Source: Dugong dugon
Lineage: Eukaryota; Chordata; Mammalia; Sirenia; Dugongidae
DNA: 64,000 nt
Direction of reading: 5' to 3'
Assembly: GCA_030035585.1 (NCBI GenBank)
Contig: CM057464.1
Location: 31,947,465 to 32,011,464 of the forward strand
Positions 12,442 through 62,927 of this stretch are shown piece by piece. The position numbers were made by a program, and so were the translations under genes. Under the pieces are notes generated by a model. The model saw only the letters and a list, made by a program, of their open reading frames with translations, was not told the DNA's origin and searched no databases. Numbering within the stretch: the stretch's first letter is position 1; every line of letters begins with the position of its first letter.

Positions 12442-12870
12442 TTTGTCATGCTTTTTTTTTTGTAGTGATGCCATCTGCTTTGTTCCTCTTACTCTACTTT
12501 GCTGAATTCCTTTTGTTTGTGGATTTTTTTTTTGTTTCTTTCATTTTTGTAGATTTTGTGTTTACTCAGACTTTATATTTTTCTTTTTATTTTGATGTGT
12601 AGGTTTGCTAACTTTTTTCATGGTAACCTTGAAATTTACCCTTATCTTCCTGAGTTTAAATCAGTCGTTTATGACTTGATATCGCCTTGACTTCCTCTCC
12701 ATTTGGAAGTTCTTTACCTACACTGTTTATTCCCTCTTTTGTTGTTCTGACATTGTTGTCATTTGCAGACTGAACTCTGGTTCCCTACTGTAAATCTTTT
12801 AGTTTTCTTTCATCCTTGAGAGTCCATTACCTAAGCTGGTATCTGGCTGATGCTGTCCTGTGTCCTAGAT

Positions 12871-13913
12871 TCAGGTTGCTGTCTGATGTTGTTGGTTCTC
12901 TAACCAAAGGACTCTCTTCAATAATTCTTGTAAGTTTGCTTTGGTTTTTAAGTACTCTCTTAATTTCTGCTTATCTGGAAATGTCCTAAGATCACCATCA
13001 TATCTGAGTGAGAGTTTTGCAGGATATATTGTTCTTGGTTGGCAATTTTTTTCTTTCAAGGTTTTATATATGTCATCCCATTGCTTTCTTGTCTGCATGG
13101 TTTCTGCTGAGTAACCAGTCTTATTGTTTCCCCCTTTGCATGTAACTTTTCATTTTTCTCAGGCTGCTCTCAGGACTCTTTGTCTTTGGTTTTAGCAAGA
13201 GTGCTTATGATTTTTCTTGGTAACCCTCCTTTGGGGACTATCCTATGTGGGGTTCATTGAGCTTCTTGGATGGTCAGCTTTTCATCTTTCATTATATTAG
13301 GCAAGTCTTCAGTCAGCAAATCTTCAAAGATCCTCTCTGTGTTTTCCATTTTCTCCCCTTGTTCTAGAACACCGATCACATGCAAATTTTTGCTTTTGAT
13401 TTTAACCCACATTGTTCTCAGGGTTTCTTCATTCTTTTCTGTTTGTTCCTCAAAAAAAGTGGTATCCAAGGGCTTAGTCTTCAATTTCACTGATTCTGTC
13501 TTCCATTGATTCAAATTTGCTCCTAAAACCTTCTATTGTGCTGTCCATTTCTGAAATCTTGTTGATTATCCTTTGGATTTCTAGCTGCTGTTTTTGTATG
13601 ATTTCTAGCTGTTTATTTATATTGGAATTTTGTTCCTGTATTATTTTCCTGAATTCTTACATTGCTTTGTCTGTGTTTTCCCTGATTTTGTCTGCATTTA
13701 CCATGATTTTCTCTTTTTCTTATTTTTGTCGGCATTTTCCTTCATCTCTTGGAGACCCCTGAATATTAAGAGTTTTTAATTCCCTATCAGGTAGTTCCAG
13801 TGCCTCTTATTCTACCAGAAGGTCATCTGGTGTTTTATTTTGGTCGCTTTCTGGACCCATCCTGTCCTTTATTTTTAAATATGTTTTGATATTATCTACT
13901 GTCTTTGGGACAT
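12871..13913 (-). pseudogene. L1 ORF1 remnant (RNA-binding chaperone)
   Basis: The C-terminal domain is clear at 12871-13098 (MQTRKQWDDIYKTLKEKN, then QPRTIYPAKLSLRY), and the RRM-like middle at 13254-13514 (NLHVIGVLEQGEKMENTERI). The N-terminal coiled-coil region (13517-13900) is rich in Gln/Lys but broken by stops. The start is inferred at the ATG at 13913 by analogy with the MPQRQ start of the copy at 50736. Family role: trimeric nucleic-acid chaperone of the L1 ribonucleoprotein. Confidence 0.8.
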
Positions 13914-15641: not shown

Positions 15642-15657
15642 CTGATCAAACTTTTTG

Positions 15658-26517: not shown

Positions 26518-28090
26518 TATTTCTGGGCAATTATAGCCACTGGAAAGTTAGAGAGGAATCTCAGAAAGAAAAGAGCCGGCAAGGGGAGTTCAAGATTCAA
26601 TGTGTAAACTCTCTGAAAATTTCTGGTTGATCCCTGTGTGTGTGTGGCAGACAGCAAGCAACAGCTAAAGATTAAAGAACTGAACTGAGGAGAGGCGGGG
26701 CCAAGATGGAAGAGTAGGTAGATGCTTCCTGTGGTCCATCTTACAACAAAGACCAAAAAGACACGAGTGAATCGATTATATATGACAATCTAGAAGCCCT
26801 GAACATCAAAGGCAAAGTTGAGGAATTGGACGGACGGGCAAGGGGAAGGAGAGACGCTTCAGAAGCAGCAAGGAGTTGCCAGAACTGACCCAGTGGGAAC
26901 CAGCACCTTGCAGGCCAGACTGGCTGACATACGTGGTGAGGCAAACACTAGTGCTCGGGACGCGTTTTCCACATTGGGAGAGACCGAGCAGTGGAGAGTC
27001 TACTCACGCCTCCAGAACCAGGGAAAACTGGCACTCAAACGACAAAAGATAACTACATGCATCTAGCCTAACATGCAGATCACCCTCTTTGGGAAAAACC
27101 TCTCTCCCATTTACCTGCTCCCTCCCCACACTGCACGGGGTCCCAGGCCAGCTTCAGCCATTGCTGCGTTCCCTGGGCCAGAATTAGGATCCATCACGTG
27201 CCCTGAGCCATTCTCCCAGCCTTGGAGAGGGATCAAATTAACAAACAGGAATAAATAATTTGTCAGCTCCCCTAAACCAGGAACTTAGGGTAGGCACAGC
27301 TCCTTTGCCTAGGCACAGCTCCTTTGCCTAGGCACAGGCATAAGGTGTCCATAGATTTGAATGTCTTTGACCCCTGCATAGACCTGTAAGGGCTCATTTC
27401 AAAAGCATAGGCCCTCATTAGCACAGTACAACAGGGTATACACCCGAAGCCTAAATTCAAATGTATCAGCTATATGATGGAGTTGCAGGTTCATGACATT
27501 AGACACCGCTCTGCCCATTGAGCAGTGTCGTCACCTACCCACACCAGGGGCCTCAGGATTGGTGGCTCCACCTGTGCCACTTAGCCACCCACAACAGGCA
27601 TCCAAGAATAAGTGATGCCTCCCAGTCCTTATATACAACAGCACTGGGTGCCCATAGTCTGGCTGCAAAATCCACCCACCTAAGCGCTCTAGGGAACAGG
27701 GACACGCTTTACACCCAGACACTCAGGGGCAGCCATGAGCCCCCTGCCTTGATCAGCACATGACCCCTTACTGCAGCCAGATACCTGTGCCTACACCAAT
27801 CACCCCTAACTGCCAAGGACTATAGGTGAGAGCATGTACCACACATTTGGTGACCGACTACCTGGACACCTGACCTGAATCCATACAAGAAAAGTAAACA
27901 GACTCCTGGGCTTACATACCTAGTAACAGCTCTAACCACCTGGTGACAGGACATTAGAGCTTCAAAGATGCAAATAAACAAACTAGCTCACACAAGCAGC
28001 CAATTTGGGTATATCAAAAAAAAGAAAAGCAAAACAAGAAGCTAGGACACAGTAGGTAAACATAAAATAAATAAATATAATAACTTATTG

Positions 28091-29058
28091 ATGGCCCAGA
28101 GACAACAGTCGATACCAAATCACATAAAGAAGCAGACCATGATGGCTTCAGCAAGCTCCCAAATCAAAGAATAAACAAATTTAACAGAGGAAGAGAACTT
28201 CTTGGAATTACCAGAGGTAGAATACAAAAGATTAATATACAGAACTCTTCAAGAGATCAGGAAGGAGATCAAACTAAATGCAGAACAAGCTAAGGAACAA
28301 GTAGACGAAGCAATAGAGGAATTTAAGAAGATTACAGAAGAGCATAATGACAAATTTAATAGGCCACAAGAATCCATAGAGAGCCAACAAACAGAAATTC
28401 AGAAGATTAACAATAAAATTTCAGAATTAGACAACCCAATAAAGATTTAAGACAAAGCACGTGATACCAATTATCTGAAAAAATAAGATAAAAGAATTTA
28501 AAAAAATAAAGAAACCCTAAGAAATAAGTGGGACTATATCAAGAGGAACAACCTGCGAGTGACTGGAGTACCAGAACAGAGAGGATAACAGAAAATACAG
28601 AGAGACTTGTTGAAGATTTGTTGACAGAAACCTTCTCTGATATCATGAAAGATGAGAAGATATCTATCCAAGATGCTCATTGAACCCCACATAAGGCAGA
28701 TGGCAAAAGAAAGTCAGCAAGACATATTATAATCAAACTTGCCAAAACCAAAGACAAAGAGAGAATTTTAAGAGTGGCTAGGGATAAAAGAAAAGTCATC
28801 TATAAAGGAGAGTTAATTAGAATAAGCTCAGACTACTCAGCAGAAACCATGCAGGCAAGAAGGCAATGGGATGACACATATAAACACTTGAAGGAAAACA
28901 ACTGTCAGCCAAAAATTATATATCCAGAAAAACTGTCTCTCAAATATGATGGCGAAATTAGGGCATTTCCAGATATACAGAAGTTTAGAGAATTTGCAAA
29001 AACCAAACCAAAATTACAAGAAATACTAAAGGGAGTCCTATGGTTAGATAATCAATGA
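28091..29058 (+). pseudogene. L1 ORF1 remnant
   Basis: It begins MAQRQQSIPNHIKKQ at 28091 and hits an in-frame stop about 27 codons in. The coiled-coil region at 28202-28450 includes EIRKEIKLNAEQAKEQVDEA and EIQKINNKISELDN. The RRM-like region (about 28500-28770) is frameshifted. The C-terminal domain at 28774-29058 shows ETMQARRQWDDTYKHLKENN then QPKIIYPEKLSLKYDGE and ends ILKGVLWLDNQ. It is non-functional. Confidence 0.85.
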
Positions 29059-44271: not shown

Positions 44272-44288
44272 ATAAGATTTTAAAAATT

Positions 44289-44650
44289 TTTTTTTTTATT
44301 GTACTTCAGATGAAGGCTTACAGAACAAATAGTTTCTCATAAAACAATAGTACACATATTGTTTTATGACATTGGTTAACAACCCCACAACATATCAACC
44401 CTCTCCCTTGTTGACCTTTTTTTTCCCCCCTTTGGTGAAAATACACATAGCCAAAGATACGCCATTTCAAAAATTTCTACATGCACAATTCAGTGACATT
44501 GACTACGCTCTTCCAATTGTGCTGCTATTCTCACTTTAAATGAAGGCTTACAGAACAAAATAGTTTCTCATTTAACGGTTAATACACATGTTGCCCTATG
44601 ACAATGGTTAACAACCTCACAACACATCAACACTATCCTTACTCAACCTT
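44289..44650 (-). repeat. Duplicated chimeric L1 3' tail
   Basis: The tail block ('atgaaggcttacagaacaaa', 'gttaacaacc') occurs at 44308-44400 and again at 44540-44640. The spacer at 44415-44525 carries, in L1 sense, 'cactgaattgtgcatgtag' and 'ttggctatgtgtattttcac' followed by an A-rich stretch. This resembles the 3' terminus of old L1s. The same arrangement exists at 35170-35570. Confidence 0.85.
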
Positions 44651-45459
44651 GGGTTCCCTATCACCAGCTTTCCTGTCCCCTTCTGCCTTCTGGCCCTTGT
44701 CCCTGGACTGCTGTGCCTCATTAGTCCCATTTGGTTTTATAGGGCTGTCCACTTCCCGGCTGAACGGTGAACCTCGGAAATGGCTTAACCACTGAGCTAA
44801 AAGGGTATCTAGGGGCCATACTCTCGGGGTTTCTCCAGTCTCCTTTAGATCAGTAAATCTGGTCATTTTTTTGTGAGTTAGAATTTTGTTCTACATCCTT
44901 CTCCAGCTCTGTCAAGAACCCTCTGTTGTGATCCTGGTCAGAGCAGTCAGTGGTGGTAGCTGGGCACCATCCAGCTGTACTGGACTCAGTCTGGTGGAGG
45001 CCTTGGTAGCTGTGGTCCATTAGTCCTTCGGACTACACTTTTCCTTGTATCCTGTTCTCTTCATTCTCCCTTGCTCCCGAAGGGATGAGATAAGTGGAGT
45101 ATCTTAGATGGATGTACACAGGCTTTTAAGACCCCAGACGCTACTCACCAAGGTAGAATGTAGGACGTTGTCTTTATAAACTGTGTTATGCCAATCAGAT
45201 AGATGTTCCCCAAGACCATGGTCCCCACAGCCCTCCACCCAGCAATTCAGTCCCTCAGGGACTTTGGGTGTATCTATGGAGCTACCATGACCTTTCCTTG
45301 TACAAGTTGTGCTGGTTTCCCCTGTATTGTGTACTGTCTCACCCTTCACCCAAGATACCACTTATCTATTGCCTTTTTAGCATTTCTCCCCCAAGGCCTT
45401 GCATCCCTGGTAACCGACAAAGATTGTTACTCTTTGTGTGTGAACATTTTCATGGGTTT

Positions 45460-48400
45460 TTACAACAGAGGTCTCATACAATATTTGTACTTTTGTGATT
45501 GACTTATTTCACTCAGCATAATGTCCTCCAGTTTCATCCATGTTATGAGATGCTTCACAGATTGATCATTGTTCTGACTGCATAGTACTCCATTGAGTGT
45601 ATGTACCATAGTTTGTTTATCCATTCTTCTGTTGATGGGCATCTAGGTTGTTTCCATCGTTTTGCTATTGTGAATAATGCTGCCATGAACATAGGTATGC
45701 ATATGTCTATTCGAGTGACGACTCTTATTTCTCTAGGATATATTCCTAGGAGTGGGATTGCTGGATCAAATGGTATGTCTGTTTCTAGCTTTCTGAGGAA
45801 GCGCCATATCATTTTCCAAAATGGTTGTATCATTTTGCATTCCCACTAGCAGTGCATGAGAGGTCCGCTCTCCCCACAGCCCTTCCAACGTATGTTATTT
45901 CCAGTGTTTTTGATTCGTGCCAGTAAAGCCAGGGTGAGATGGTATCTCATTGTGGTTTTAATTTGCATTTCTCTAATGGCTAGTGATCACGAGCATTTCC
46001 TCATGTGTCTGTTGGCCATTTGAATGTCTTCTTTGGTGAAGAGTCTCTTCATTTCCTTTGCCCATTTTTTAACAGGATTATTTGCCTTTTTGTTGCAGAG
46101 GCGCTGGATCTTCTTGTAGATTATGGAGACTAGACCTTTGCCTGACTTGCAATGTCCAAAAATTTTTTCCCAGTCTGTAGGTTCTCTTTTGACTCTTTTG
46201 GTGAAGTCTTTTGAAGAGCATAGGTGTTTGATTTTTAGAAGATCCCAGTTATCTAGCTTATCTGCTGGGGTTTCTGTGTTGATGGTTATGGTTTGTATCC
46301 TGTTAATGCCGTGTATTAAGGCCTGTAGTGTTGGTCCTATTTTTCCCTCTAAGAACTTTACAGTTTTAGGCTTTATATTCAGGTCTTTGATCCATTTGGA
46401 AGTAGTTTTTGTATACGGTGTGAGGTATGGGTCCTGTTCCATTTTTTTGCAGATGGATATCCTGTTTTGCCAGCACCATTTGTTAAAAAGACTGTCTTTT
46501 CCCCATTTGATGGACTTTGGGCCCTTGTCGAAGACCAGGTGCCCGTAGGTGGATGGATTTACATCTGGGTTCTCAATTCTCTTCCTTTGGTCAATGTATC
46601 TGTCATTGTACCAGTACCAGGCTGCTCTGACTACTGTAGCTGTATAGTAGGTTCTGAAGTCAGGTAGTGTGAGTCCTCCAAATTTATTCTTCTTCTTCAG
46701 TAGTGCTTTACTTATTCAGGGCTTCTTCCCTTTCCGTATAAAGTTAATGATTAGTTTTTCCATCTCTTTGAAGAATGTTGTTGGTATTTGGATCGAGATT
46801 GCATTGTATTTGTAAATTGCTTTGGGTAGAGTTGTCATTTTCACAATGTTGAGTCTGCCTATCCATGAGCATGGTATGTTTTTCCATTTATGTAGATCCC
46901 TTTGGGTTTCTTACAGTAGAGTTTTGTAGTTTTCTTTGTATAGGTCTTTTACATCCCTAGTTACATTTATACCTAAGTATTTTATTTTTTTCAGGGCCAT
47001 TATAAATGGTGTTGTTTTCCTGATTTCCTTTTCATCATTCTCTTTATTGGTGCATAGGAATCCAACTGATTTTTGTATGTTTATCTTGTATCCTGCTACT
47101 CTGCTGAATCTTTCTATTAGTTCCAGTAGATTTCTCATGGAGTCTTTAGGGTTTTCTATGTATACTATAATATCATACGCAAACAGGGACACTTTAACTT
47201 CTTCATTACCAATTTGGATGCCCTTTATTTCTTTTTCTTGCCTTATTGCTCTAGCTAGAACTTCCAACACAATGTTAAATAGGAGTAGTGATAAAGGACA
47301 TCCTTGTCTTGTTCCTGTTTTCAAGGGGAATGTTTTCAGCCTCTCTTCATTAAGAATGATGTTGGCCATTGGTTTTGCATAGATGCCCTTTATTATGTTG
47401 AGAAATTTCCCTTCTATACCTATTTTATTGAGAGTTTTTCTCAGGAATGGGCGTTGGACTTTGTCAAATGCCTTTTCTGCGTCAATTGAGATGATCATGT
47501 GATTCTCTCCTTTCCTTTGATTTATGTGGTGGATTACATTGATTGATTTTCTAATGTTGAACCATCCTTGCATACCTGGTATGAATCCTACTTGGTCGTG
47601 GTGCATTATTTTTTGATATGATGCTGAATTCTATTGGCTAGAATTCTGTTAAGAAACTTTGCATCTATATTCATGAGAGATATTGGTCTGTAATTTTCTT
47701 TTTTTGTGACATCTTTGCCTGGTTTTGGTATCAGCATTATGCTGGCTTCATAGAATGAATTTGGAAGTGTTGCTTCCTTTTCTATGCTCTGAAATAGCTT
47801 GAGTAGTACTGGTACAAGCTCTTCTGTATATGTTTTGTAGAATTCTCCAGTGAAGCCATCTGGGCCAGGGCTATTTTTGGTTGGGAGTTTTTTTATTACC
47901 ATTTTGATCTCTTCTCTTGTTATGGGTCTGTTCAGATTTTCAACATCATTTTTTTGTAATTTGGGTAGGTAGCGTGTTTCTAGCAATTTACCCATTTCCT
48001 CTAGGTTTTCAAATTTGTTGGAGTATAGTTTTTCATAATATTCTGTTATAATCCTTTCTATTTCAGTTGGTTCTGTTGTAATGTCCCCCATTTCGTTTCT
48101 TATTTGGGTTATTTGTGTCCTCTCCTGTTTTTCTTTTGTCAGTCTGGCCAGTGGTTTGTCGATTTTGTTGATTCTTTCAAAGAACCAACTTTTGGTTTTG
48201 TTGAGCCTTTCTATTGTTTTTCTGTTCTCTATTTCATTTATTTCCACTCTGGTCTTTAGTATTTCCTTTCTTCCAGTGGCTGTGGGCTTTTTTTGCTGTT
48301 CTATTTCTATTTGTTTGAGTTCTGTAGTTAATGTTTTGATTTTGTCCCTTTCTTCTTTTTTGATGTCTGCATCTATTGCTATAAATTGTCCTCTGAGGAC

Positions 48401-49275
48401 TGCCTTTGCTGTGTCCCAAAGGTTTTGGTATGAAGTGTTTTATTCTCATTTGATTCTAGGAATTTTTTGATTCCATCTCTGATTTCTTCTATTAGCCAGT
48501 GATGTGTAAGCAGGGTATTATTCAGTTTCCATGTAATTGATTTTTTTTCCTTGCTTTTTCTGTTGTTAATTTCTACCTTGATGGCATTGTGGTCAGAGAA
48601 GATACTTGGAATTATCTCAACGTTTTGGATCTTTCTGGGGATTGCTCTGTGGCCTAAGATGTGGTCTAGTCTGGAGAACATTCCATGTGCATTGGAAAAG
48701 AATGTGTACTTTGCAGCGGTTGGATGGAGTGTTCTATATATGTCTATGAGGTCAAGTTGGCTGATTGTGCCCTTTAGGTCTTCTGTATCTTTGCTGAGTT
48801 TCTTCTTAGTTGTTCTGTCCTTTACTGAGAGTGGTGTGTTGAAGTCTCCTACTATTATTGTGGAACTTTCAATTTCTCTCTTCAGTGTTGTTGGAGTTGG
48901 TTTTATGTATTTTGGAGCCCTGTCATTGGGTGCATAGATGTTTATTATGGTTGTGTCTTCATGATGGATCGTCCCCTTAATCATTATATACTGTTCTTCT
49001 TTGTCTTTTATGGTGGATTTTGTTCTAAAGTCTATTTTATCTGAGATTAGTATTGCCACTCCTGCTCTTTTTTGGTAATTGTGAGCTTGATATATTTTTT
49101 TCCAACCATTGTCTTTTAATAAATTCACATCTTTGTTTCTAAGGTGTGTCTCTTGTAGACAGCATAATGAATCCTGTTTTCTTATCCATTCTGTCACTCT
49201 CCATCTCTTTATCGGTGCATTGAGTCCATTTACATTCGGTGTAATTATTGATAGATGTGAGTTTGTTGGTGTCAT
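45460..49275 (-). pseudogene. L1 ORF2 remnant, best preserved
   Basis: The endonuclease domain is open from the ATG at 49275 for 298 codons (49275-48379): ITPNVNGLNAPIK (Asn), CCLQETHLRNKD (Glu), IIVGDFNTPLSVKDR (Asp/Asn), SRLDHILGHRA (Asp) and SDHNAIKVEI (Asp/His) keep all expected catalytic positions. Next come a 213-codon frame (48247-47606) with [14 protein letters not shown] and a 231-codon frame (47606-46911) with motif [16 protein letters not shown] and [16 protein letters not shown]. Its catalytic box reads [10 protein letters not shown], so FADD has become FAYD. Further frames are at 46442-45987 and 45833-45460. Role in the family: nicks target DNA and primes reverse transcription; inactive here. 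Confidence 0.92.
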
Positions 49276-49701
49276 TTTGTAGTGCTTTTTTTTGCGGTGC
49301 TGACGTTTTCTTTATTCTTTTTACTCTCCTGTGCTGAGTTACTTTTGTTTGTGGATTTTTTTTTTTCATTTCTTTTGTTTTTGTAGGTTTTGTTTTTGCT
49401 GAGACTTTATGTTTTTCCTCTTTATTTTTATGAGTATGTTTGTTAACTTTCTTTGTGGTTACCAGGAATTTTACCCTTATCTTTCTAATTTTGAAGCAGT
49501 CTACCATTACTTGGTATCGCTTTGCTTTCCTCTCCATTAGAAGATTCTATACCTATGCTGTTTATTCCCTCTTTAATTGTTTTGATGTTGTTGTCATTTA
49601 CTGATTAACTGCTCTGATTCCCTGTTGTATTTCTTTTGGTTTTGGATAGTCCTTCAGCGTTCATTTTCTAGACTGGTATCTGGCTGGTATGATCCTGCAT
49701 C

Positions 49702-50736
49702 CTAGATTCTGCCTGTGAGCTGAAGTTGTTTGTTCTCAGATCGAAGAACTCCCTTTAATAATTCTTGCATGTTTGGTTTGGATTTTACATATTCCCTTAA
49801 TTTCTTTTTATCTGGAAATGACCTGATTTTGAACAAGAGTTTTGCAGGATATATTATTCTTGGCTGGCAATTTTTTTCTTCATGATTTTATATATGTCAT
49901 CCCATTGCCTTCTTGCCTGCATGGTTTCTGTGGAATAATCTGAGCTTAGTCTTATTGTTTCTCCTCTGTACGTGACTTCTTGTTTTTCATGAGCTGCTCT
50001 CGGGATTCTTTGTTTGTCTTTGGTTTTTGCAAGTGTGAATATGATATGCCTTTGTGACTTTCTTTTGGGGTCTCTCCTATATGGGGTTCATTGAGCTTCT
50101 TGGATGGCCAGATTTTCATTTTTCATGATATTGGGGAAGTTTTCTGTCAGCAGTTCTTCAATGATCCTCTCTGTGTTTTCTGTTTTCTCCCCCTGTTCTG
50201 GAACTCCAATGACTCCCAAATTTTTACTTTTGATGGTATCCCACGTAACTCTCAGGGTCTCTTCATTTTTCTTTGTTCTTTTTTCTGAGTTTTCCTGAAA
50301 CAGAGTTGTATCCAAGTGTTTGTCTTCAATTCCACTGATCCTGTCTTCCACCACTTCAAATGTGCTTCTCAGCCCTTCTATGACACCATCCATTTCTGAA
50401 ATCTTGTTGTTTATCTTTTGTATTTCTAATTGTTTTCTTTGTATAATTTCTAGTTGTGAATTTATTTTGGCATTTTTTCCTGCATTATTTTCCTGAATTC
50501 TTCCTATTTTTTGTCTGTATTTTCCATGAATTGTCCATTTTTTCCTCATATTTGTCAGCTTTTTGCCTCAGCTCTTGGAGAATTCTGAGTATTAGAGATT
50601 TGAATTCCCTATCAGGTAGTTCTAGTGCCTTTTCTTCCACTGGAGAGTCATCTGGTGTTTTATTTTGGACACCTACTGGAACCATCCTGTCCTGTTTTTG
50701 TAAATGTTTTGATATTGTCTGCTGTCTTTGGGGCAT
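49702..50736 (-). pseudogene. L1 ORF1 remnant
   Basis: It starts MPQRQQTISKHLQKQDRM at 50736 with VEEKALELPDREFKSLILRI. Then comes a Lys/Gln-rich coiled coil (50549-50088: QLEIIQRKQLEIQKINNKIS) and an RRM-like part KNLGVIGVPEQGEKTENTER. The C-terminal domain at about 49740-49930 is recognisable after a frameshift near 50088, with codons for the QARRQWDDIYK-type motif and PAKLLFKIRS. The 3' boundary is approximate. Confidence 0.8.
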
Positions 50737-52360
50737 TCAGTAGTTTTTTTTCTCATTTATTGATTGTAGGTTTGTTTGTTTTGTCCCCTTTTTTAAAAAA
50801 TTTTTGACTATGTCTGAGCAGGCAGACTGTGTGTTATTTGTTGTTTGCTCCTCTGTGGGCACAATACTTTTCACCTCTTTCTCCAATTGGCAGGGTCAGT
50901 CACTCAGATATGGTACAGCAGGGCAGTTCTAGCTGAAGAGGAGTTGCTGGGATGGGTTGTTTGTGGCACTTACTACAGCCAGCAGAGCGGGTCGGTAATC
51001 AGTGCAGGGCAGGTTCCAGTAGACCATGCCTGTGCTGCTTGGTGGTGTCATGTTAAGCCCACAGTTCAGGTAGGCAGGATGTAGTGGGGAGATTGTTATG
51101 TGTGGAGCTAAGATGGATATGGGAGAGAAGAGAGAGGAACAGGAGCCAAAAACATACAAACAAAGAAAAAAGAATGCTAGGGGAGCTTGCTGTTGGAAGA
51201 GATGAGAGACTATGAAATGTAGAAAAACAAAAAGGGGAAGAGGAACAAAAAAAGAATAGAATGAATAAATAAAAATAGGAAAGGTTAAAGAACAGCAAAG
51301 TTCCCAGGGATCCCACCGGTGCGGCTATGAGGTCTGGGGAAGTTGTTCTGAGGTGTTGCAGTACAGTCTGGCTAGAAGGTGTAGAGGTATACAATGCCAT
51401 GTATTCAGGGAACATGAAGAGAAGGAAGATATAGAGAGACGAGAAAATGAGTAATGAAGAAAGACAAAAAGGGAAAAAGAGGGAAAAGAAAACAAAACAA
51501 ATTTTTTAAAAAAGAGCAAGAAAACAGAAGAAAAATAAAAACCATCGAACAAAGAAATGTCCTCAGGGATCCCTCTGCATGTCTGTGCAAGCTGAGGAGT
51601 AAGTTCCAAGCCACACAGCACCACCTGGCCAGATCGGACTCCCAACTGAAGAAAAGGAAAAGAAAACAAATAAACAATTCAAAACAAACAAACAAACAAA
51701 AGCCCCAGGATCCCACCAGCATGGCTGCCCAGACCGGGAAGCATCTCCACACTCAAACGGAGCTCCACAGCCCCTCAGGAAGAAGCAAAGATGGTGCACG
51801 GAGCCAGGTATTTGAGCAAAAGGAGGGGGAGGTGGTGAGAAGTGAGGAAGAAATCAAAAGAAACAGATAAAAGCAACACCAGCGGCCAACAAATGGCACT
51901 CAGAGAGCCGGCCCTTTCCAGTGGGTGGAATCCAAGCAGCCAGTGCTTCTGGGACAAGAGATTGTGGCCACGGGAAGCAGAGAAGGCCGAATGTGGGTGA
52001 AGAAGGGTAGGGAGTGGGAAAGGGTATATCACAAATTACCGGTTGTTTTGTCTCCCGCTGGAAGCTCTGTGAAGCTGCTTTCTCATACCTCCTGTTTGCT
52101 GGTCTCTGATAGGAGTCCAAGATGGTGGATCCATGCTGTGTTAGCTGATAGAGGACCTCTGCATGACTCTCTCCGAGCTCTCTCTCCATTCTCTGTCAGT
52201 TTTCACACTCCATTTGGTGCTTGGCTGAGTTCTTTATCTCTTCATTTGATGTTTTAGGGTTTCAGGATTGTTGTTTTCTCTGTCCAGCTTAGTTTTTTGG
52301 ATCTTTGCTGTGGAGGGACGGCGTGGCGCTTCTGCTTAGAGTGCCATTTTACCAGAAGTC
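50737..52360 (-). promoter_or_regulatory. L1 5'UTR with repeated units; possible antisense promoter facing PRL
   Basis: Units sharing 'cagggatccc(a/t)c' followed by a G-rich CpG-containing block recur near 51308, 51564 and 51710, each trailed by a purine-rich A tract. At the 5' end on the L1 strand, GGTAAAATGGCACTC carries an ATGG core like the YY1 site at other L1 5' ends. On the + strand, plausible splice donors exist: CAG|GTAGGC near 51068, GA|GTAAGT at 51599-51604 and CAG|GTATTT near 51807. These could let antisense transcripts splice toward PRL. Promoter activity is inferred from L1 biology and not shown by sequence. Confidence 0.5.
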
Positions 52361-52596
52361 TAGGATTTTTAAATTTAGAATAGTCAAGTAACATTGATAA
52401 AATTTACCCTTCAGTGTACATGTTATAATGTTCTGATCAGAGCTCTAAAAAAAAAAAGGTTTTCATTCTTTTAATCATCATTTGGATCATCGAGACATTT
52501 GAAAAGTAAAAATTATTAATGACTATACTAACAGTTGCCTAGGGTCTGCAAAGTCTACCAACAAGTTTGATGGATTGTTTTTAACTGTCCAATTTT

Positions 52597-52778
52597 CTGG
52601 AGTCCCTAGGTAGTGCAGTTAAAGAGCCCACCCAGAGGCATCTTGGAAGAAAGGCTTTGTGACCTACTTTCCAAAAATCAGCCATTGAAAACTTTATGGA
52701 GCACAGTTCTACTCTGACACATGTGGGGTCACCACAAGTTCGAATCCACCAGACAGCAACTGGTCTGGTATCTAATTT
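52597..52778 (+). mobile_element. AfroSINE, second body type
   Basis: The head 'ggagtccctaggtagtgcag' is followed by 'agaggcatcttggaagaaag' and 'gtgacctactttccaaaaat', then 'tatggagcacagttctactc' and a tail 'caccacaagttcg'. The body differs from the 'agatgtggcagtctgcttcc' type and matches the copy at 63043. Confidence 0.88.
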
Positions 52779-53199
52779 GCTAACAGGTAAACAAAAATAT
52801 AAAAGGTTATGACAGAAAAAATAAGACCCAATATACACATATACATGGAAAATGCAATGAATATTTGTTTAAATTCCTTGAAAAAAATGGTGAAAAAGTC
52901 CTCTTTTAACATTTGAAAATTATCTTTACATTGAATCATATGAATAATTATTTCATTTTTAAACTTCATACAGGTAGTCAAGAGTTTGGAAGAAAGAGTT
53001 ACATCACACACTTATCTTCAAAAAATATTTTTAAATAATCAAATATGTGTTCCCATTCATTTGACGTGACCTTAAAGTAACGAGAAAGTTTTCTATAAAC
53101 CAAACGTGAAAATATTCTCACAATTTCACAGCTATTCCCAATATCATTTTCATTTATCTCAATGAACATTTTCTCTGTTTTTCAGGTACAGCTAAAGAG

Positions 53200-53372
53200 A
53201 CCAGTATTTGCCTCTGTAACCTACCCAGCAGCTCTGCAGGAGAAAGACCTGCAATCTGCAGCCAAGAAAAGATTACAGCCAAAAAAAACCCTATGGGGCA
53301 GTTCTACTCTGTCATATGGGGCTGCTATACATTGGGATTGACTCGACAGCATCCAACAACAGCAGCAACAGT
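53200..53372 (+). mobile_element. AfroSINE, third body type with RTE-like tail
   Basis: 'caggagaaagacctgcaatc' then 'gaaaagattacagcc', 'ctatggggcagttctactct' and the tail 'gggattgactcgacagca', ending CAACAACAGCAGCAACA. The CAACAA terminus is the same as that of the RTE at 21512. Confidence 0.85.
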
Positions 53373-54793
53373 AAAGACTGTTATTCTGCAGTTATTACCA
53401 AAAAGTCATAATTTATATTCATTCTCCTTCTTTCTCTCTGAAATTGATGCTTATTTCTGGAAGACACCTTCTGTTTCTCATCTATTATGTTATCTTATAG
53501 GATATGAGTACTAAATGGCCTATATAAGAGAGAACATTTAAATGCCACATCACCTGTAATGGTAATAGTAATACTGCTTCTCTAAAGTGGTCAACAGATA
53601 ACCTTTTTTTGACTTTCTTTGACTTTCATTCTACTAATGCTGTAGAAGTGACAAGTGAAAATTAAATGAAGATTTCATGACATACGCAAGACTCATATTA
53701 GTGAAAGTGTTCTTAGAGACCAAAATGGTAGATAAATCAAAGACCAATTTGAAGAAGAAAAAATTTGCTAATAGCTTTCCATGCCTTATATACATAACTT
53801 ATTAAGAAATATTTTAACAAATGTATTGTTTTTATAATGTAGAATCACACTTACATACTCTTTGACAGCAACAATGTTTCCTTAAAGGCCCCAAAGAATT
53901 TAAAACATTCGATTTATTTTTCCTCTCTCTCTCTTTGGGAACCAAATTATCTTGGCCTTTTCTCTATTGATAATAATGTATTTCTCAATGTGTCCAAGGT
54001 CACATCTATATCTCTTCACCAAGACTTACTATCCACTGTATAAAAAGCTCAGTGGGCATACAAGTAGGAGTGTATGAGACAAGAAGAAATATTACTAGTC
54101 TGACAAGCAAGAAAGATCAAGCATTCTAGCGCCAGTTTCATCAATAATTAAATATGTTTACCTCATTTTCTTCACCTGTAAAATGTGCTATTTAGTTATA
54201 TTAACTACATAATTCCACTAACTCTCAAATACTATGATTTAGACAAGCTGGAGATTGTTCCAAAGTTGTCCTTCAGGATGATTACTCTTCCTGATTGGAA
54301 AAAAAAAAGATTAAAATTGAAGTGGGCATAGGCAGAAGAAAATGGAAGAGAAACTATATAAATATACAGGTCAAGATAACCTAGAAAGAGGGGGAAGGAG
54401 AATTTTATGGAGGTAACAGAGGTAGGATAATTGCAACATACCAACTGGTTGAGTGTGGTGGCAAAAGAAAAGGAAATAAACACAACTCCAAGATACTAAG
54501 CATGGGTGGCAGAGGATACTGGTTTGAGAGAAAAGACAAATAATTAAGGATTTTCTGTGAATAATTCAACATATCTAGGGACATATAGGTTGAAATGTTT
54601 AGCAAGTAGATGTCAGCTCATAAGAGAAGTCAGGGCAAGATAGAGTTGGGATCATCTTCATGAGAAGACAGGCAAAGCCATAACATTGAATAAGACTGCC
54701 AAGGAGAGTATAGGGTTGAATGCTGAAAGAATTTAACATAGATAAGGACTCAGGGAGTTATTTAGAATCAGCAATTAAATAATCATTGGTGAC
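53373..54793. other. No gene; weak MIR-like piece
   Basis: The segment 54125-54235 ('acctcattttcttcacctgt', 'aaaatgtgctatttagttat') is MIR-like. The rest is AT-rich with no supported gene or promoter. Confidence 0.4.
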
Positions 54794-55330
54794 TGTCATG
54801 GATTGAATTGTGTCCCTCAAAAATATCTGTCAACTTGGCTGGGTCATGATTCCCAGTATTGTATGATTGTGTACCATTTTGTAAATCTGATGTGATTTCC
54901 TTATGTGTTGTAAACTCTATCACTAGGATGAGGTTATATGTGATTTCCTCATGTGTTGTAAACTCTATCACTACAATGAGGTTATACTGATGAGGTTTGC
55001 AAGATTAGATAGTGTCTTAATCCAATCTCTATTGAGATATAAAAGAGAGAAGCAAGCAGAGACACATGGGAACCTCATACCACCAAGAAGGCAGCGCCGG
55101 GAGCAGAGCGCATCCTTTGGACCTGAGGTGCCTGCACAGAGATGCTCCCAGACCAAGGGAAGATTGACAACATGGACCTTCCTCCAGAGGTGAAAGAGAA
55201 AGAGTTCCCTTGGAGCTGACGCCCTGAATTTGGACTTGTAGCCTACTGGACTGGGAGAGAATAAACTTCTCTTTCTTAAAGCCATCCACTTGTGATATTT
55301 CTGTTACAGCAGCACTAGATGACTAAGACA
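54794..55330 (+). mobile_element. Solo LTR, MaLR/MLT1-like, best preserved
   Basis: It starts TGTCATGGATTGAATTGTG, ends GATGACTAAGACA, and is flanked by a perfect 5-bp TSD, GTGAC (54789-54793 and 55331-55335). A polyadenylation signal AATAAA lies at 55260-55265. An internal near-duplicate of about 45 bp occurs ('tgatttcct(t/c)atgtgttg' at 54891 and 54941). It lies about 5.1 kb upstream of PRL exon 1 in the same orientation. Confidence 0.8.
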
Positions 55331-55737
55331 GTGACCATTAAGAGAAAACAAAACAAAAAACTGAACTACTTACATATTTGCATTGCATAGTGTTCCAGTT
55401 TTTAGAAAATTGTTACATTTCTCATTATGGTAAAGTATAATGTCATTTGCTGCAGATGTTTCAACAGGTGCTTGAAATTATGTCTTGGTTAATTTCTCCT
55501 TGCATTTTCTAAATATATGCATTATGTTTTGATGCTATTATTGAGTGCATGAAGATTAGTAACAGCTTTATCCCCATTGTAGATTGTGCCTAATGTCACA
55601 AAATACTGTTTGTACTTTGCTTCTTTTAACATTTTTTGCCTGAAATTTAAACTTATTACTATTATTAAATAGTTTTAATAATACTATTCCAGAAATTTCA
55701 AATAATTTGTTTGATAGGGTTTTATTGTACTTAACCA

Positions 55738-55938
55738 AAATAAAACCAATGGCATTGAGTTGATTCTAACTCATAGCAACCCTGTAGGACAGAATAGAAC
55801 TGCTCCATAGGGTTTCCAAGGCCATAAATCTTTGGGCAAGCAAGTTGTCATATCTTTCTCCCACTGAGCGGTTGGTGGATTCGAACCACCAACCTTCCAG
55901 CAGCCGAGTGCTTAACCTCTGGGCCACCAGAGCTCTTC
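55738..55938 (-). mobile_element. AfroSINE, full length with clear B box
   Basis: In reverse orientation: the tail 'ggcattgagttgattctaac', body 'tcatatctttctcccactga', B box GGTTCGAATCC (reverse complement of 55877-55887) and a tRNA-like head 'gtgcttaacctctgggccac'. The A- and B-box spacing is tRNA-like, but the rest has no cloverleaf, so it is a SINE and not a tRNA gene. Confidence 0.92.
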
Positions 55939-55964
55939 TAACTTTTTTTCGGTACTGCATTTTA

Positions 55965-56208
55965 GATCAGGGTTTCTCAGTAGCATTGGTATTAACGTTT
56001 TGGATCGCATGGTAATTTTGTTTGGGGTTTGTCTTGCACATCGTAGTAGGTTTAGCAGCATTCATGGCTATTACCTACTAGATGCCAGTAGCACCCCCAT
56101 CTTTCAGTTACCACAATCAAAAATGTCTTCAGACATTTCCAGATGTCCCTTGGGAGGCAAAATCAACACCACCACCACCACTGCCCTTTAAACACCACTG
56201 TTTTAGAT
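55965..56208 (-). mobile_element. MER5-like hAT DNA transposon
   Basis: 'cagggtttctcagtagcatt', 'agcacccccatctttcag' and 'aaaatgtcttcagacatttc' then 'cagatgtcccttgggaggca' correspond to a MER5-type element in reverse, related to the copy at 60648. Confidence 0.75.
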
Positions 56209-58150
56209 ATATCACTTGTATACAGCATCTAACTGGAATTAACATTTTTACAGAAATTGAGTCATTTTGTTTGATTTTGTTCTGGCCTCTACTTTTATAT
56301 TTTTTGTTGTTGTTTCTGTTTACTTTGTTGTCTTACATCAGGCACTAAAATGTGTCCAAAGGTACGGATGGTTCAGAATAGGCATGTGACAAGAAACCTG
56401 TAGGATAAGCTAACACACAGAACTCAGCCAGTTCAGAGGATATGAATGTTGTATCAGTTAAACACAAACAAGCAACAACAACACAGCAATAACTGGAGAA
56501 ATTTCCAAACGCTCCCACTGTGGCTTTCTTATTTAAGGATCAAGTGCCCTCAAAACACTGCCAAAGGATTAGGAATTTGAGTTCTGGGATCACTTAGGGA
56601 CGCTGATGATCTGTAAAGCCTCAATAAGAAACAAGCATTGAATACGGAATTTAGGGGAAAGAAAATGTATGTCTTAATATGCATGTGTTAATCTAAATAG
56701 TAGGATAAAATTAAATTGTTAAATTTTGCCCACCCTGAAACAGAGCCATTCAAGAAAGCACCATTATGATTGATCCTGTCCCCAATATGCCCTTAACATT
56801 TTCTGATTACTTTATATTGAAAACAACATATATGCTATCTGATCTTGCAGTCTAAGTTTTGGAAAATGGCTGTTTGGAATATATAAATCAATAAAAAACA
56901 TGTATTTAGTCCTTTGCAAATTTCACTTTATTAAAGATAATTTATTACTAGTATATAATGAAATATTTTTCTGAGGATTTTTAAATCCTTTAATAGTTTC
57001 CATTATATCTTGCAGTAGACACCTTTCAAGTTATGTGAATCATTTTAAATAGTTTTGTGTAAATTACAGAAGAAAAGACAAAAGTATTCCAAAATTAAAA
57101 ACAGGAAAACATAAGAAAATATAAACTTCATTCCTAGTTAGGAATGAAAACCAACCTGATGTTATTCAATGTTAAAAATTAGAAGTATTTAGAAAAGATG
57201 GTAAAATGGCTTATTAGTTTTAGGTACTAAAAAGAGCATGTGGACTTTAGCATCATTTGAGCTATTTATTCAGCTACTCAGTCACCAGCACTTAGTTTAA
57301 CTATATGTCCTCAAATGAAAAATGGCAAACAAATGAATTTATGCAAACAAATCAGACAAGTCCGTTTTTAGTGAACTTCTTTATTATTCTACATTTGAGA
57401 GAATTTAGATTTGATAAAGAGGAAGTTTGATAAACTTTTTTTTTTAGTTTCATAAGGAGGAAGGCCTGCAAAAGAGTACATACAATACAGAAGACCACAA
57501 CAGAAATAGATACAGTGAAACCTGTGAGAGCTGGAGCTTGACAGGACTGCCTTGTCTTTCTAGAGTCTCAAGTTTTTCATCTGTCTTTGACAAGGTGTCT
57601 ACTCTCTTATCTATCACTTGTTTCAGTGGAAAATATTTGAGTTTTCCTTCTCTGACAAGTTTCTGCCTTACACGGGTTCCAGCTTTTGCACTTACACGTG
57701 TAAGTGACATATAAGTAACACATATAGCAGTTAGAAAAAAGAGAGGCAACTCTGACTTTCGCATAAAATATGACTTTTGCATTATTTAGATATTGCAATA
57801 TCCTGTAAACAGGAATTGTGGGACTATGGATCAGCAAGGAAGCACATGATAAATTTTACAGCAATACATACCTCTTTGGAGTCAGTGGGCCTCTGCTGAG
57901 AAATCACAACTCAGAGTTTCTCAGGTTACTCTTATCCTGGCTATCTATAAAAGCTGCAACACCTTTAAATTTTAAGATTAAGTTGTCAGTTCTTATGACA
58001 GGCTTTTTTATTCTTGGGTTTCTAGGAGAGGAGGGGAATACAGGGCAGTATTAATTTCTCTACCACACTGCCCTGCTCTCTTAATAATTCAGACTTTCAC
58101 CATCTGAGGGTAAAAATGTAGAACTAGTATGAATGTATGGAATCCTGACC
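56209..58150. other. PRL upstream region, no gene recognised
   Basis: AT-rich. A minus-strand frame of 110 codons at 57450-57782 has a hydrophobic N-terminal part and a basic middle, but no family match and no promoter context. It overlaps another frame at 57607-57837, so it is treated as chance. Confidence 0.4.
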
Positions 58151-58172
58151 CAGCTTTTAGAGTAATAAACCA

Positions 58173-58352
58173 AAAAAAAAAAAAAAAAAAACCAAACCTG
58201 TTGCTGTCAAATAGATTCTGACTCACAGAGACCCTATAGGTCAGAGTAGAACTGCCCCATAGGGTTTCCAAGGAGTGGCTGGTGGATTCGAACTGCCCAC
58301 GTTTTGGATAGCAGATGAGCTCTTAACCACTGTGCCACCAGGGCTCCTCTAG
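58173..58352 (-). mobile_element. AfroSINE, internally deleted, with poly-A
   Basis: In reverse: an A-run (58172-58190), the tail 'tgctgtcaaatagattctga', 'gggtttccaaggagtggctg' (body deletion like the copy at 23322), B-box-like 'ggattcgaactgcc' and head 'ccactgtgccaccagggctcc'-type end. Confidence 0.9.
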
Positions 58353-58559
58353 AGTGATAGAGCCTCTAAGTCATCATGTTTATAATTCAAAATCTAGGAC
58401 TGTTTAAGCAAAGGCAATGAGGAAGACAGTTTTTCAGTAAATTTAGTCTTTGTTAAGATTTCTAGGGCCCCATAAGAGCAGTTAATCAGATACTTGCTAA
58501 AGTACATATGTGGCCTGAGCAACAATAGAAAAAGTAAATGCTATAATAAGTGATTATTT

Positions 58560-59000
58560 TTTAATGATCTCATCCGTCACAGTGTACTCTAAGAGACATA
58601 CGGTAAATCTAAATTAAAGGTCACAAGCTGCTTTACTTGCCCACCACATGGACTTCAAAATGAGAGAAATCGTCAACAGCTCAGTTCTTATTCATCATAA
58701 TCATTTCATGTAGGAAATCTTTCAAAGGTGAATGGAACTTTTGAGGCCACGAAAAATGAATTTTTCTCACGTTAGCCCCAGAATGGCTCCGAGTCAGAGA
58801 AGGTAAAGTGATCATAAGTTAATAACAGGTTATCCATTATTACCCTTGAGGACAGTAGGAATGACTAGCTAGAATTTTGGTTTACTGTATCATATATTAG
58901 GATGTGTATGTGCATGTGTATATTTGCCTTTGAAAACCACTATATCGCTTCCCCAAAATAAACTCTCTAAGGTCAGAGGTGATGTCTTGTTCATTTTAGA
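58560..59000 (+). promoter_or_regulatory. PRL: Candidate PRL distal enhancer
   Basis: CGTCACAGTGTACTCT (58575-58590) resembles the imperfect estrogen-response element of the rodent PRL distal enhancer. AT-rich Pit-1-like sequences ('tcatcataatcatttcatg', 58690-58710) and a direct repeat AGGTCAGAGGTGA (58970-58982) lie downstream. It is about 1.4-1.8 kb upstream of exon 1, or about 0.9-1.3 kb without the L1 tail at 59090. Position and motif content fit the known enhancer of other mammals, but the assignment is inference. Confidence 0.4.
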
Positions 59001-59089
59001 ACACAGGGTGGGTATACAGCAATATTTGATAAATGGTTCATTTTCCAACCTTCCTCACATCCCTCCTGATATCTGTTAAAGCAATAATC

Positions 59090-59630
59090 CTTCCAGAAAG
59101 ATTAGTCCAAAGGACTAATGGAGCACAACTACTACGACCTTCACCAGACTGAGTCCAGTATAACTAGACGGTGCTCGGCTACCACCAATGACTGCTCTGA
59201 CCAGGATCACAACAGAGGTCCGAGACAGAGCTCGAGAAAAATGTAGAACAAAATTCTAATTCACAAAAAAAGACCAGACTTACTGGACTGACAGAGACTG
59301 GAGAAACCCCAAGAGTATGGCCCCCGGATACCCTTTTAGCTCAGTAATGAAGTCACTCCTGAGGTTCACCCTTCAGCCAAAGATTAGACAGTCCCATAAA
59401 ACAAAAAGAAATTAATAAGGCACAGCAGTCCAAGGACAAGGCCTAGAAGGCAGGAGGGGACAGGAAAGCTGGTAATAGGGAACCCAAGGTTGAGAAGGGG
59501 AAGTGTTGACATGTCATGAGGTTGTTAACCATTGTCATAAAACAATATGTGTACTAACTGTTTAATGAGAAACTTTTTGTTCTGTAAAGCTTCATCTAAA
59601 GTACAACTAAAAAAAAAAAAAAAAAAAAAG
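59090..59630 (+). mobile_element. L1 3' tail, 5'-truncated, between PRL enhancer and promoter
   Basis: It begins in the 3'UTR ('agtccaaaggactaatgg', 'cagactgagtccagtataac') and ends with 'aactgtttaatgagaaact', 'ttcatctaaagtacaact' and a run of about 20 A. It lacks the duplicated tail of the copies at 35.4 and 44.4 kb. It is in the same orientation as PRL and about 760 bp upstream of the pituitary start. Confidence 0.92.
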
Positions 59631-59664
59631 AATTGACAAGAAAAAGAAATAATCCCTACAGGGT

Positions 59665-59815
59665 CTAACTTGACTAATTGCTTCTTCTATATCCTTGTCA
59701 TTTAATCTCCCTAAACCTCTGTTCTTTAATCTGTAAACTGGGGATAATAATCCAACTTTATACAGTGTTAAAAGAGATAAACAGAGGGCAATACACATTA
59801 TAAAACAAGCCCCAT
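59665..59815 (+). mobile_element. MIR SINE
   Basis: 'tcatttaatctccctaaacc', 'gttctttaatctgtaaactg' and 'gggataataatccaacttta' match the MIR core and 3' half. Being mammal-wide, it predates the afrotherian insertions around it. Confidence 0.75.
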
Positions 59816-60199
59816 TCATACTTGCAATTTTTAAAAAAAAACAAATCAGAATGTGTAAAAATGCAAGAAAAAAAATTAGGGAAACGTAATGAGAATGTAA
59901 CGGGAACTGAAAATTCTACTTTTTCAATTCTTATTGTATCTTTCCTAGTTTTAGAGTGCCAATTTTGAAATCTTGACTGCACCTAGAAATCTTGATTAAC
60001 CCTTTGATAATACTCAAAACTATCACCTCAGTGAAACATAATGCTATATATTCAAGAAGCTGCAGAGAAAAAAAGATAAATTTTAAAGTAAATGACTTCT
60101 GTAGTTTTACAGATCTTCTAACCTAAACTAGTCTCCAGATCTCACCTTCATCATTTCTCTCATTTCCTTTTGGTCTAATTAATCAAAATCCTTCCTAGA

Positions 60200-60390
60200 A
60201 TGTTCATGTCTGGCCAGTATGTCTTCCTGAATATGAATAAGAAATAAAATACCATTCGATGTTTGAAATAATGGGGGTAATCTCGATGACGGAAATGGAT
60301 AATCAGGTAGAGGGAAGGAATGCCTGATTAATAGATTCATGAAGATGTCAAAGGCTTATAAAGTCTGTATCTGGGAAAGGGAAAGCTGTG
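60200..60390 (+). promoter_or_regulatory. PRL: PRL pituitary proximal promoter
   Basis: TATAAA at 60357-60362 sits about 30 bp before the expected start near 60388. Upstream lie a Pit-1-like site TGATTAATAGATTCAT (60325-60340), a second AT-rich site CTGAATATGAATAAGAAAT (60227-60245) and TGACGGAAAT (60287-60296), a cAMP-responsive/Ets-like element known from mammalian PRL promoters. In the family, POU1F1 (Pit-1) drives lactotroph expression through such sites. Confidence 0.85.
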
Positions 60391-60440
60391 GAGTTCCAGC
60401 TCTACTCTGGTGAAGGGTGTTTCCTGTGATTATCACCACT

Positions 60441-60468
60441 ATGGACAACAAAGGGTCATCGCCAAAAG
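60441..60468 (+). CDS. PRL: Prolactin, coding exon 1
   Basis: The ATG at 60441 is followed by 28 coding bases for MDNKGSSPK plus the first base of the next codon, ending in donor GTACGT at 60469. This short first exon, with a phase-1 break after 9 codons, is typical of PRL. The transcribed exon probably begins near 60388, giving about 53 nt of 5'UTR. The ATG context CACTATGG is acceptable. The encoded residues start the signal peptide, and exon 2 supplies the rest after a 2277-bp intron (60469-62745). No competing upstream ATG in frame is seen in the presumed leader. Confidence 0.95.
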
Positions 60469-60647
60469 GTACGTGCAACAACTCATCCAGTTGTTGGCTT
60501 TATCAATACTCCTTTAGGGGTAGTAATGTGAAATTTTAGAAATTTTATTTTTTATTTTATTTTATTTTCTGTTAGCAAAAGGCTTCAGATTTACACCTTT
60601 TAGAAGCTTTTGGAAAGCAGCTGTATATGGACACACTAGAAAAGAGC

Positions 60648-60838
60648 AGTGGTTCTCAACCAGGGGTGATTTTTCCACCCCAGGAGAAATTGGACAACGT
60701 CTGGAGATGTTTTTGGTTGTCATAACTAGCATCTGGTGGGCAAGGGCCAGGGATTCTGTTAAACATCTGACAATGCAGATGATACCCTTCCACAAGAAGG
60801 GATTATGCAGCCCCAAATGTCAAGGTTGAGAAGCCCTG
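60648..60838 (+). mobile_element. MER5A-like hAT transposon in PRL intron 1
   Basis: The left end CAGTGGTTCTCAACCAGGG and right end 'ggttgagaagccctgg' form imperfect terminal inverted repeats. The interior has 'gtctggagatgtttttggtt' and 'tctggtgggcaagggccagg'. The length of about 190 bp fits MER5A. Confidence 0.88.
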
Positions 60839-61985
60839 GACTAGAAAAAGACCATAAGAGCCTATGGGTCCAATTTTTTATATCTCCAGAAGGCAGAAAA
60901 CAACATTTTCTCACTCCCAGAACTCTTATGCGGCTTGGCAAAGTTGAGTCAGTCTGATGAAAACTTTCAGTTCTGAAGCGATAATATAGAAAGTGATAGC
61001 AGCAGTGTCTCTCATACTACTTCGTCAATTTGGTTTAAACCAAAAGACATTTTAATAGAAAAACGAGGCTAGTAATAACTGATTGCCTTTACTTCCTTGG
61101 GTGACATTTGCAAGGAATGGAAATTAGCGACAATCATAACATTTATTTTCTGAATCAAAAACAAAAACATTTGCCTATTTTATCTCACCTTACATTGTGA
61201 GAATCCTTCAGATGATGCTGATGCAAAGGCACTCAGAGTTTAAAAAAAAAAAAAAATCTATCCAATTATATTAATTTCCTAGAGTCGATATTCCAATTTC
61301 TTGACCTACAAAGCTCGTTTTATTTACACATGTAGATAAAATATCCATTCAGCTGCAATTATATGACTATAACATGTATAAAATAAATTTTTCAGAAGTA
61401 TGATGTTTTTGGAAAATTAAAAATCTATTATATGAGTTATCTCACAACATTGATTTTTGTATTTTGCATTTAAAGGGTTATTTTGTTATATTCTATACAC
61501 AATTTATGTTTAGGCATTTTTTTCACACATAAATCCTTAGCACTTGCCTAGTTTTATCTTGGGCATTCCCAACTGCATTTATTGAAGTTTCCATGGAAAA
61601 TTAGTTTCTCATAAATACGTATTTATATCAGATATTCTTTTGGAGTAGTTTCAAGGAAGTGAAAAATTGATTTTAATCTACTAGCTACATAGTGTTTCCT
61701 TTTGAAAGTGTAAATTATTAATATTTTGTTGTCTCTGATCATTGTCTCACAAAAAGTGGGTGTTTTATAGATAGAGCAGAAAAAGTGAGCTAAATCAAAC
61801 TTCCTAGGGCCTCCGTTATCACATAATCAAGGGCAAAGTGTTGTTCTTGACAAGCAATGGCAGGGACCTCTGCAAACACTGAGGCCTGGTGACCGCAAGC
61901 ACAGTCCCTGTTAGTCATATGCAGATCAAGAGCCACTGGTGTGGGATGTAACATGGTGGGCTGGAAAAGACCACAATATTGACCT
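60839..61985. other. PRL intron 1, no feature recognised
   Basis: Intronic AT-rich sequence. The minus frame at 61790-62032 is unsupported. No additional exon was identified. Confidence 0.5.
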
Positions 61986-61989
61986 CCTG

Positions 61990-62215
61990 CCTCCTCCACC
62001 TGCTTATAATAAAGGGACTTGGAAAAAATCACTTAACCTTTATAAGCTGTCTGTTTCATCAAAAGAATTTGATGATAATAAGGAAGACCCGTTGTACCTC
62101 ACAGGGTTATTGTAAAGTTCACATGAGAAAAACTTTGAAAGCCTTTGGTAAAATGTTCAAGCAAACGCATATTATTATCATGGTAATTTATCAGATGCAG
62201 GCTACAGCATCATTT
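61990..62215 (+). mobile_element. MIR SINE in PRL intron 1
   Basis: 'aaaatcacttaacctttata', 'ctgtctgtttcatcaa', 'acctcacagggttattgtaa' and 'cttatattattatca'-like sequence follow the MIR consensus order. Confidence 0.65.
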
Positions 62216-62745
62216 TTATTAGAATTCTCTTCGCACTATTAGCAATCCATCAATCATATGTTTATTCTTATCCGTCATGAAGATAAAAACAAACCGATTA
62301 ATGGTGCTCTTCTTGTCATTTCAGTGTCTAATGTGCAAGTATTTTGGGCACGTAAAGTTAAAAAATTGCAAACTCCTAGAGAGCTCTGCTGCTGAAAATG
62401 CTGCAGAAACTCCCAGGATATTAAACTATCTTAAGAGAATGACCTAAACACCCTGGCTCAAAATTAATTCAAGTTCCAAACGTTTGCTAAGTACAGAAGC
62501 ACTTCTGGGAGCGATACAAAAATGCACGGAGTAACCTACTTCTCAAACTATAAATCTGTGCAAATATAATTATATATCTAAATTTACACAGTGGAAGGTG
62601 TTGATTCTTCCTGCCTCAGCTATTACACTGCCAAATCATGCAGCTGGGGGCAATGGGAGCAATAAGGCTTCCTTCCTCAAGATTGCTTTTGATAACCTCG
62701 GCTGAATAGATCGTCTCAGCATGGCTCCTGTTTTAATTTAAGCAG

Positions 62746-62927
62746 GGTCACTCCTGCTGCTGCTGCTGCTGGTGTCAAACCTGCTCCTATGCAAGAGCGT
62801 GGCCTCCCTGCCCATCTGTCCCAGCGGGGCTGTCAACTGCCAGGTGTCCCTCAGGGACCTGTTTGATCGTGCAGTCATCCTGTCTCACTACATCCATAAT
62901 CTCTCCTCAGAAATGTTCAACGAATTT
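62746..62927 (+). CDS. PRL: Prolactin, coding exon 2 (signal peptide and mature N-terminus)
   Basis: The acceptor AG at 62744-62745 and donor GTAAGT at 62928 bound a 182-bp exon. Joined in phase to exon 1 it completes a 30-residue signal peptide with a seven-Leu core (CTC then six CTG codons, 62751-62771), ending KSVAS before mature [11 protein letters not shown]. Mature Cys4 and Cys11 form the N-terminal disulfide typical of tetrapod prolactin. The helix-1 region [20 protein letters not shown] is present, with an N-glycosylation sequon NLS at mature residue 31. It ends ...FNEF at mature residue 40. Prolactin is a secreted pituitary cytokine-fold hormone acting through PRLR. Growth hormone and placental lactogen paralogues are excluded by the [16 protein letters not shown] signature. 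The remaining three exons are outside the window. Confidence 0.97.

Follow-up and report, generated by a model that had tools for sequence, protein, structure and literature searches.

The 64,000-nucleotide stretch of DNA analysed here (the window) carries the first exons of the prolactin gene PRL on its + strand. The coding part of the pituitary-type first exon was read from the sequence at 60441-60468, where it is followed by the donor AAG/GTACGT, and exon 2 lies at 62746-62927, where it is identified by matches to prolactins in the PDB (1.3e-17 for the translation of 62748-62924 against solved prolactins). Exon 5 is found further downstream in the genome (match 5.1e-33). The genome yields no PRL retrocopy preserving the 5' exon: searching it with 62746-62925, 180 bases out of the 182 in exon 2, recovers only that segment itself. 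A search of 44-64 kb with Rfam at gathering thresholds also returned nothing. The same interval contains a 48-bp unit in two head-to-tail copies (54890-54986), next to a repeat at 55000-55332 that recurs at 1.5-1.9 kb and 42.1-42.4 kb.

Upstream of PRL, on the minus strand, lies a full-length L1 with broken coding frames (44289-52360; hereafter copy B), which was delineated by Pfam domains, L1 self-alignment, the 5' end common to 39 other genomic copies and a poly-T tract on the + strand. Its coding region is split into several minus-strand frames, and those at 46.9-50.6 kb contain the endonuclease (PF03372, 3.8e-16) and reverse transcriptase (PF00078, 1.5e-32) domains. The RBD-like domain of ORF1 (PF02994) scores 22.3 bits, just below the cut-off of 22.4, and one of the five frames has no Pfam match. 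The first base of the ORF1 ATG, read by eye, is 50736 on the minus strand. Together with the 5' edge and the 39 copies, this delimits a minus-strand 5'UTR at 50737-52360, whose antisense reading, on the + strand, runs toward PRL. This UTR is matched by all 39 fetched copies, each extending to a point within 52350-52363; in one of them the match begins no earlier than 50789, and another is gapped at 51057-51148. The aligned columns agree well as far as 52360 and drop to background level over 52361-52363, and from this alignment we place the 5' end of copy B at 52360 or one to two bases further. At the 3' end the poly-T of the + strand begins at about 44289. The element is flanked by a putative target-site duplication, 44273-44288 on the 3' side and 52361-52376 on the 5' side, with 13 of 16 positions matching. 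The score of this duplication is not significant alone, being matched by 63 of 300 shuffles, and it counts as evidence because of its position at both ends of the element. Near the 3' end the segment 44303-44406 is duplicated at 44533-44638 (83%), and another L1 copy, at 34.3-35.6 kb, can be aligned through this region.

Copy B thus combines ORF1 and an ORF2 with endonuclease and reverse transcriptase, a poly-A end with a target-site duplication, and a complete 5'UTR with a shared 5' end; it is an inactive, full-length L1 of an abundant genomic family, antisense to PRL. The original prediction held that a minus-strand L1 at 44.3-52.4 kb keeps its 5'UTR and that antisense transcription from it, about 8 kb upstream of PRL, would head toward the gene. 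The Pfam domains and the edge at 52360 in the 39 copies bear out the former statement, and the latter agrees with the measured distance of about 8.1 kb between the 5' end of copy B and the PRL ATG (60441), the gene lying downstream on the + strand. Two further L1s lie at a greater distance from PRL. L1-A (7700-15650, minus strand) is a second full-length L1, much older than copy B, and its 5'UTR matches its genomic relatives in several separate stretches at each place, as a multi-unit UTR would. L1-C (26694-28120, + strand), read by eye, has a different 5'UTR that begins near the motif CCAAGATGG and is sense to PRL.

The family of copy B was sampled by a genome search with 51300-51800, from which the best 39 other places among 5970 first-look candidates were all fetched. 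These best 39 are 87-90% identical to copy B over 500 bp, which fits a lineage-specific age of the family, the host being taken as an elephant. The best genomic match outside the window lies at 31866031-31866542 on the same contig, in opposite orientation and ~81 kb before the window. In 18 of the 39 copies the 5'UTR carries, after 51864, an additional unit of about 295 bp. Judged from these alignments, the family UTR is built of tandem units, either one or two of them, and the PRL copy has one. Relative to the majority state, 67 of 1481 non-CpG sites differ in the UTR of copy B (rank 34 of 40, counted from the least diverged) and 121 of 3885 in its body, both being underestimates in that scoring was restricted to columns in which at least 70% of the copies agree. 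Mammalian substitution rates are of the order of 1.3 to 2.2 per billion sites per year, and the insertion would be very roughly 15 to 55 million years old. It probably occurred later than the split from hyraxes and sirenians, if the host is taken as an elephant. The region 50600-52450 of copy B contains 20 CpG, the lowest count among the 40 copies (median of the others 32, two-unit copies included), despite the ordinary divergence of its body.

Emera et al. 2012 (MBE 29:239) reportedly described an L1-2_LA-derived promoter of PRL in the elephant endometrium, in agreement with the papers that cite them. Passages of such papers attribute the elephant PRL promoter to L1-2_LA or to an L1 (PMC5745447, PMC3554611), and a passage of PMC7786948 speaks of LINE-1-derived enhancers. 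The portions of the citing literature that were searched give no position, strand, distance or mapped L1 copy for this promoter. As far as these portions describe it, the elephant promoter resembles copy B in being L1-derived and upstream of PRL, with the host of our sequence again taken as an elephant. In human and mouse, L1 5'UTRs start antisense chimeric transcripts, with YY1 near the human start, as described in part of PMC4908685. Copy B shares with them an antisense 5'UTR that points into a gene and YY1-like words; chimeric transcripts are documented for those promoters and would be a prediction for copy B. The decidual PRL promoters from primate MER39 and mouse MER77, to the extent covered by the same sources, are likewise transposons upstream of PRL with a proposed alternative promoter role, but these are LTR elements whereas copy B would act through an L1 5'UTR read antisense. 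As immunostaining mentioned in part of the review PMC9176407 suggests placental PRL in elephants, the relevant tissue need not be the endometrium alone.

In the 33 kb upstream of PRL no L1 5'UTR other than that of copy B was recognised; recognition proceeded without a repeat library, such that a diverged one between copy B and L1-C (~26.7 kb) could be missed. The copy B UTR is therefore the leading candidate for the reported L1-2_LA promoter (Emera et al. 2012), an identification that we hold tentatively and rate at somewhat under an even chance. Should the reported endometrial promoter be an L1 of this window, this UTR would be the most probable one. In favour of this assignment the sequence offers a complete 5'UTR facing PRL, an apparently fitting age and orientation, and the + strand YY1-like words listed below, and the literature offers the elephant, human and mouse L1 promoters cited above. 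In such a scenario, antisense transcription would be initiated by RNA polymerase within the UTR, on the + strand, the first exon would end at one of the UTR donors (51070, 51599, 51842 or 52007), and splicing would then span some 10 to 12 kb to reach PRL exon 2, or lead to an acceptor near exon 1. The tissue in which copy B would drive PRL is likewise one that we infer. We also considered position as evidence and rejected it: about 1% of genes should have an antisense copy of this family at most 10 kb upstream, a rate computed from the 5970 first-look candidates, which are not confirmed copies, in 3.158 Gb. Because the family is common, the position of copy B by itself says little.

The original prediction had named donor-like sites on the + strand at about 51068, 51599 and 51807, and these were recovered with first intron bases 51070, 51599 and 51808. 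The first, CAG/GTAGGC (51067-51075), is conserved in the family and identical in 27 of the 39 copies. The second, GGA/GTAAGT (51596-51604), is private to the PRL copy, with GTAAGT present there in none of the 39 others. The third, CAG/GTATTT (51805-51813), is family-conserved (identical in 32 of 39) and weak, with a score of 0.94. Absent from that list was the strongest antisense donor of the family (51839-51847, first intron base 51842), which reads GAG/GTAAGG in the family, with GTAAG in 36 and AGGTRAG in 35 of the 39 other copies, and is degraded to GAA/GTGAGG in the PRL copy. The remaining sites of the PRL copy are moderate or weak donors, and its best + strand donor scores 5.62, tied for the lowest of the 40 copies (median 7.02). 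All donor and acceptor scores here come from a simple position-weight scheme and are not MaxEnt values. The UTR contains five + strand donors scoring at least 3.5, as against 3.5 expected from 500 first-order Markov shuffles (P = 0.28). An apparent enrichment, five against about 1.5 expected from the 0.89 per kb of the window, is gone when the UTR is compared with shuffles of itself, and was discarded. The real donor of PRL exon 2 scores just 0.25, and its real acceptor ranks 24th among the 722 AG sites in 52361-62800. Weak scores therefore do not exclude splice use. The top acceptor-like AG among the same 722 is at 53186, about 0.8 kb from the L1, in sequence with no other listed match until a repeat at about 53.2 kb; from there to 53700 no donor with a positive score follows it.

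Comparison of the UTR with the body of the element recovers no excess conservation: 65 of 1488 against 121 of 3885 positions differ, and this ratio of 1.40 lies above that of 11 of 14 other copies (20 copies were given, six of which were left out for too little aligned body). None of 13 UTR sub-windows shows a clear dip, the lowest relative rate being equalled or undercut in 21% of copies, and the sub-window 50737-50861 is on the fast side. Among 17 consensus words for decidual or promoter motifs, no gain stands out in the PRL copy relative to the family. The closest excesses are GATA (4 words against a mean of 2.26; 10% of copies reach this count), followed by C/EBP (1 against a mean of 0.31; 28%). 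The YY1-like word AARATGG occurs on the + strand at 51110, 51788 and 52119 and once more on the minus strand (four in total, family mean 3.44), and the strict word AARATGGC is rarer in the PRL copy than in the family (1 versus a mean of 1.87). As a promoter needs few bases, these results are compatible with one, yet they lend it no support. The sequence-based observations that speak against copy B are the lack of constraint or of a clear decidual-motif gain, the loss of the best antisense donor of the family, a donor density at chance level, the lack of an in-frame ATG for the strongest donor (51070), and a position that about 1% of genes should share.

The alternative that survives best, though we consider it unlikely, places the reported L1 promoter in a 5'-truncated L1 3' end at 59096-59620 (+ strand), recognised by self-alignment and genome copies, with the PRL ATG following about 0.8 kb downstream. 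Here a sense start would run from the L1 3'UTR into exon 1. This fragment is in sense orientation and nearest to PRL, its family is abundant and young (89-92% identity to the listed copies), and transcription starts at L1 3' ends are cited in part of PMC4908685, where they are antisense. However, it lacks an L1 5'UTR, contains no + strand donor scoring at least 3.5, and would yield an unspliced leader carrying the pituitary promoter. Unlikely too, and ranked next, is a promoter in a more distant L1, with the copy B UTR inert: L1-C in sense (~26.7 kb), L1-A in antisense (near 15.6 kb), or an element outside the window. L1-C has a 5'UTR-like start that faces PRL, and the same contig carries a relative of the copy B UTR some 81 kb ahead of the window. 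Nevertheless, the distance of these L1s to PRL is much greater, and the UTR of L1-A is old, with best matches of 73-76%. The weakest alternative, which we regard as improbable, is that copy B is inert like any ordinary L1 and that PRL near the placenta arises from the pituitary-type promoter or from an unrelated site in the relevant cell type; the lack of constraint, of a clear motif gain and of donors above chance is consistent with it, but the passages of PMC5745447 and PMC3554611 describe an alternative PRL promoter of L1 origin in the elephant endometrium.

Returning to copy B as the promoter, its UTR also permits a specific prediction for the first exon. A private ATG opens a short + strand frame, MWVKKG (51991-52006), which would join PRL exon 2 in frame via the weak donor 52007. 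The ATG occurs in none of the 39 other copies, and the GTAGGG form of this donor in three. Six of ten donor candidates (50895, 51599, 51842, 51921, 51993 and 52007) have a UTR ATG that stays open into exon 2, while the other four donors tested, among them 51070, the strongest, have no in-frame UTR ATG. Donor 52007 gives the shortest leader, in which MWVKKG would directly precede the hydrophobic core of the PRL signal peptide; donor 51921 would give MALREPALSR. An in-phase ATG at most 15 codons before a donor scoring at least 3.5 is seen for one of five donors in the UTR and six of 54 over 1-60400. As this frequency is at chance level, the MWVKKG exon is a prediction and not evidence. That endometrial PRL mRNA in fact starts in this UTR and is spliced from the ATG 51991 and donor 52007 to exon 2, with MWVKKG replacing MDNKGSSPKG, strikes us as very improbable; if true, one L1 copy would have supplied promoter, first exon and start codon. 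We also examined a single 40-codon antisense frame as a possible ORF0-like frame and set it aside, its ATG being present in 15 and the frame open in 19 of the 39 copies.

An L1-derived elephant PRL promoter is already published, and copy B itself is an ordinary member of its family. Its candidacy is legitimate and rests on the prior literature, not on special features of the copy. To this the present analysis adds exact boundaries for the element, its place within the family, the decay of the family's strongest donor, a donor and an ATG found only in this copy, and the expected frequency of such a position. At present the sequence nominates a candidate. The convergent recruitment of various transposons for uterine expression of PRL is well known, and tying the elephant instance to one mapped L1 copy, with its strand, donors and a predicted first exon, would make it checkable with a handful of reads.
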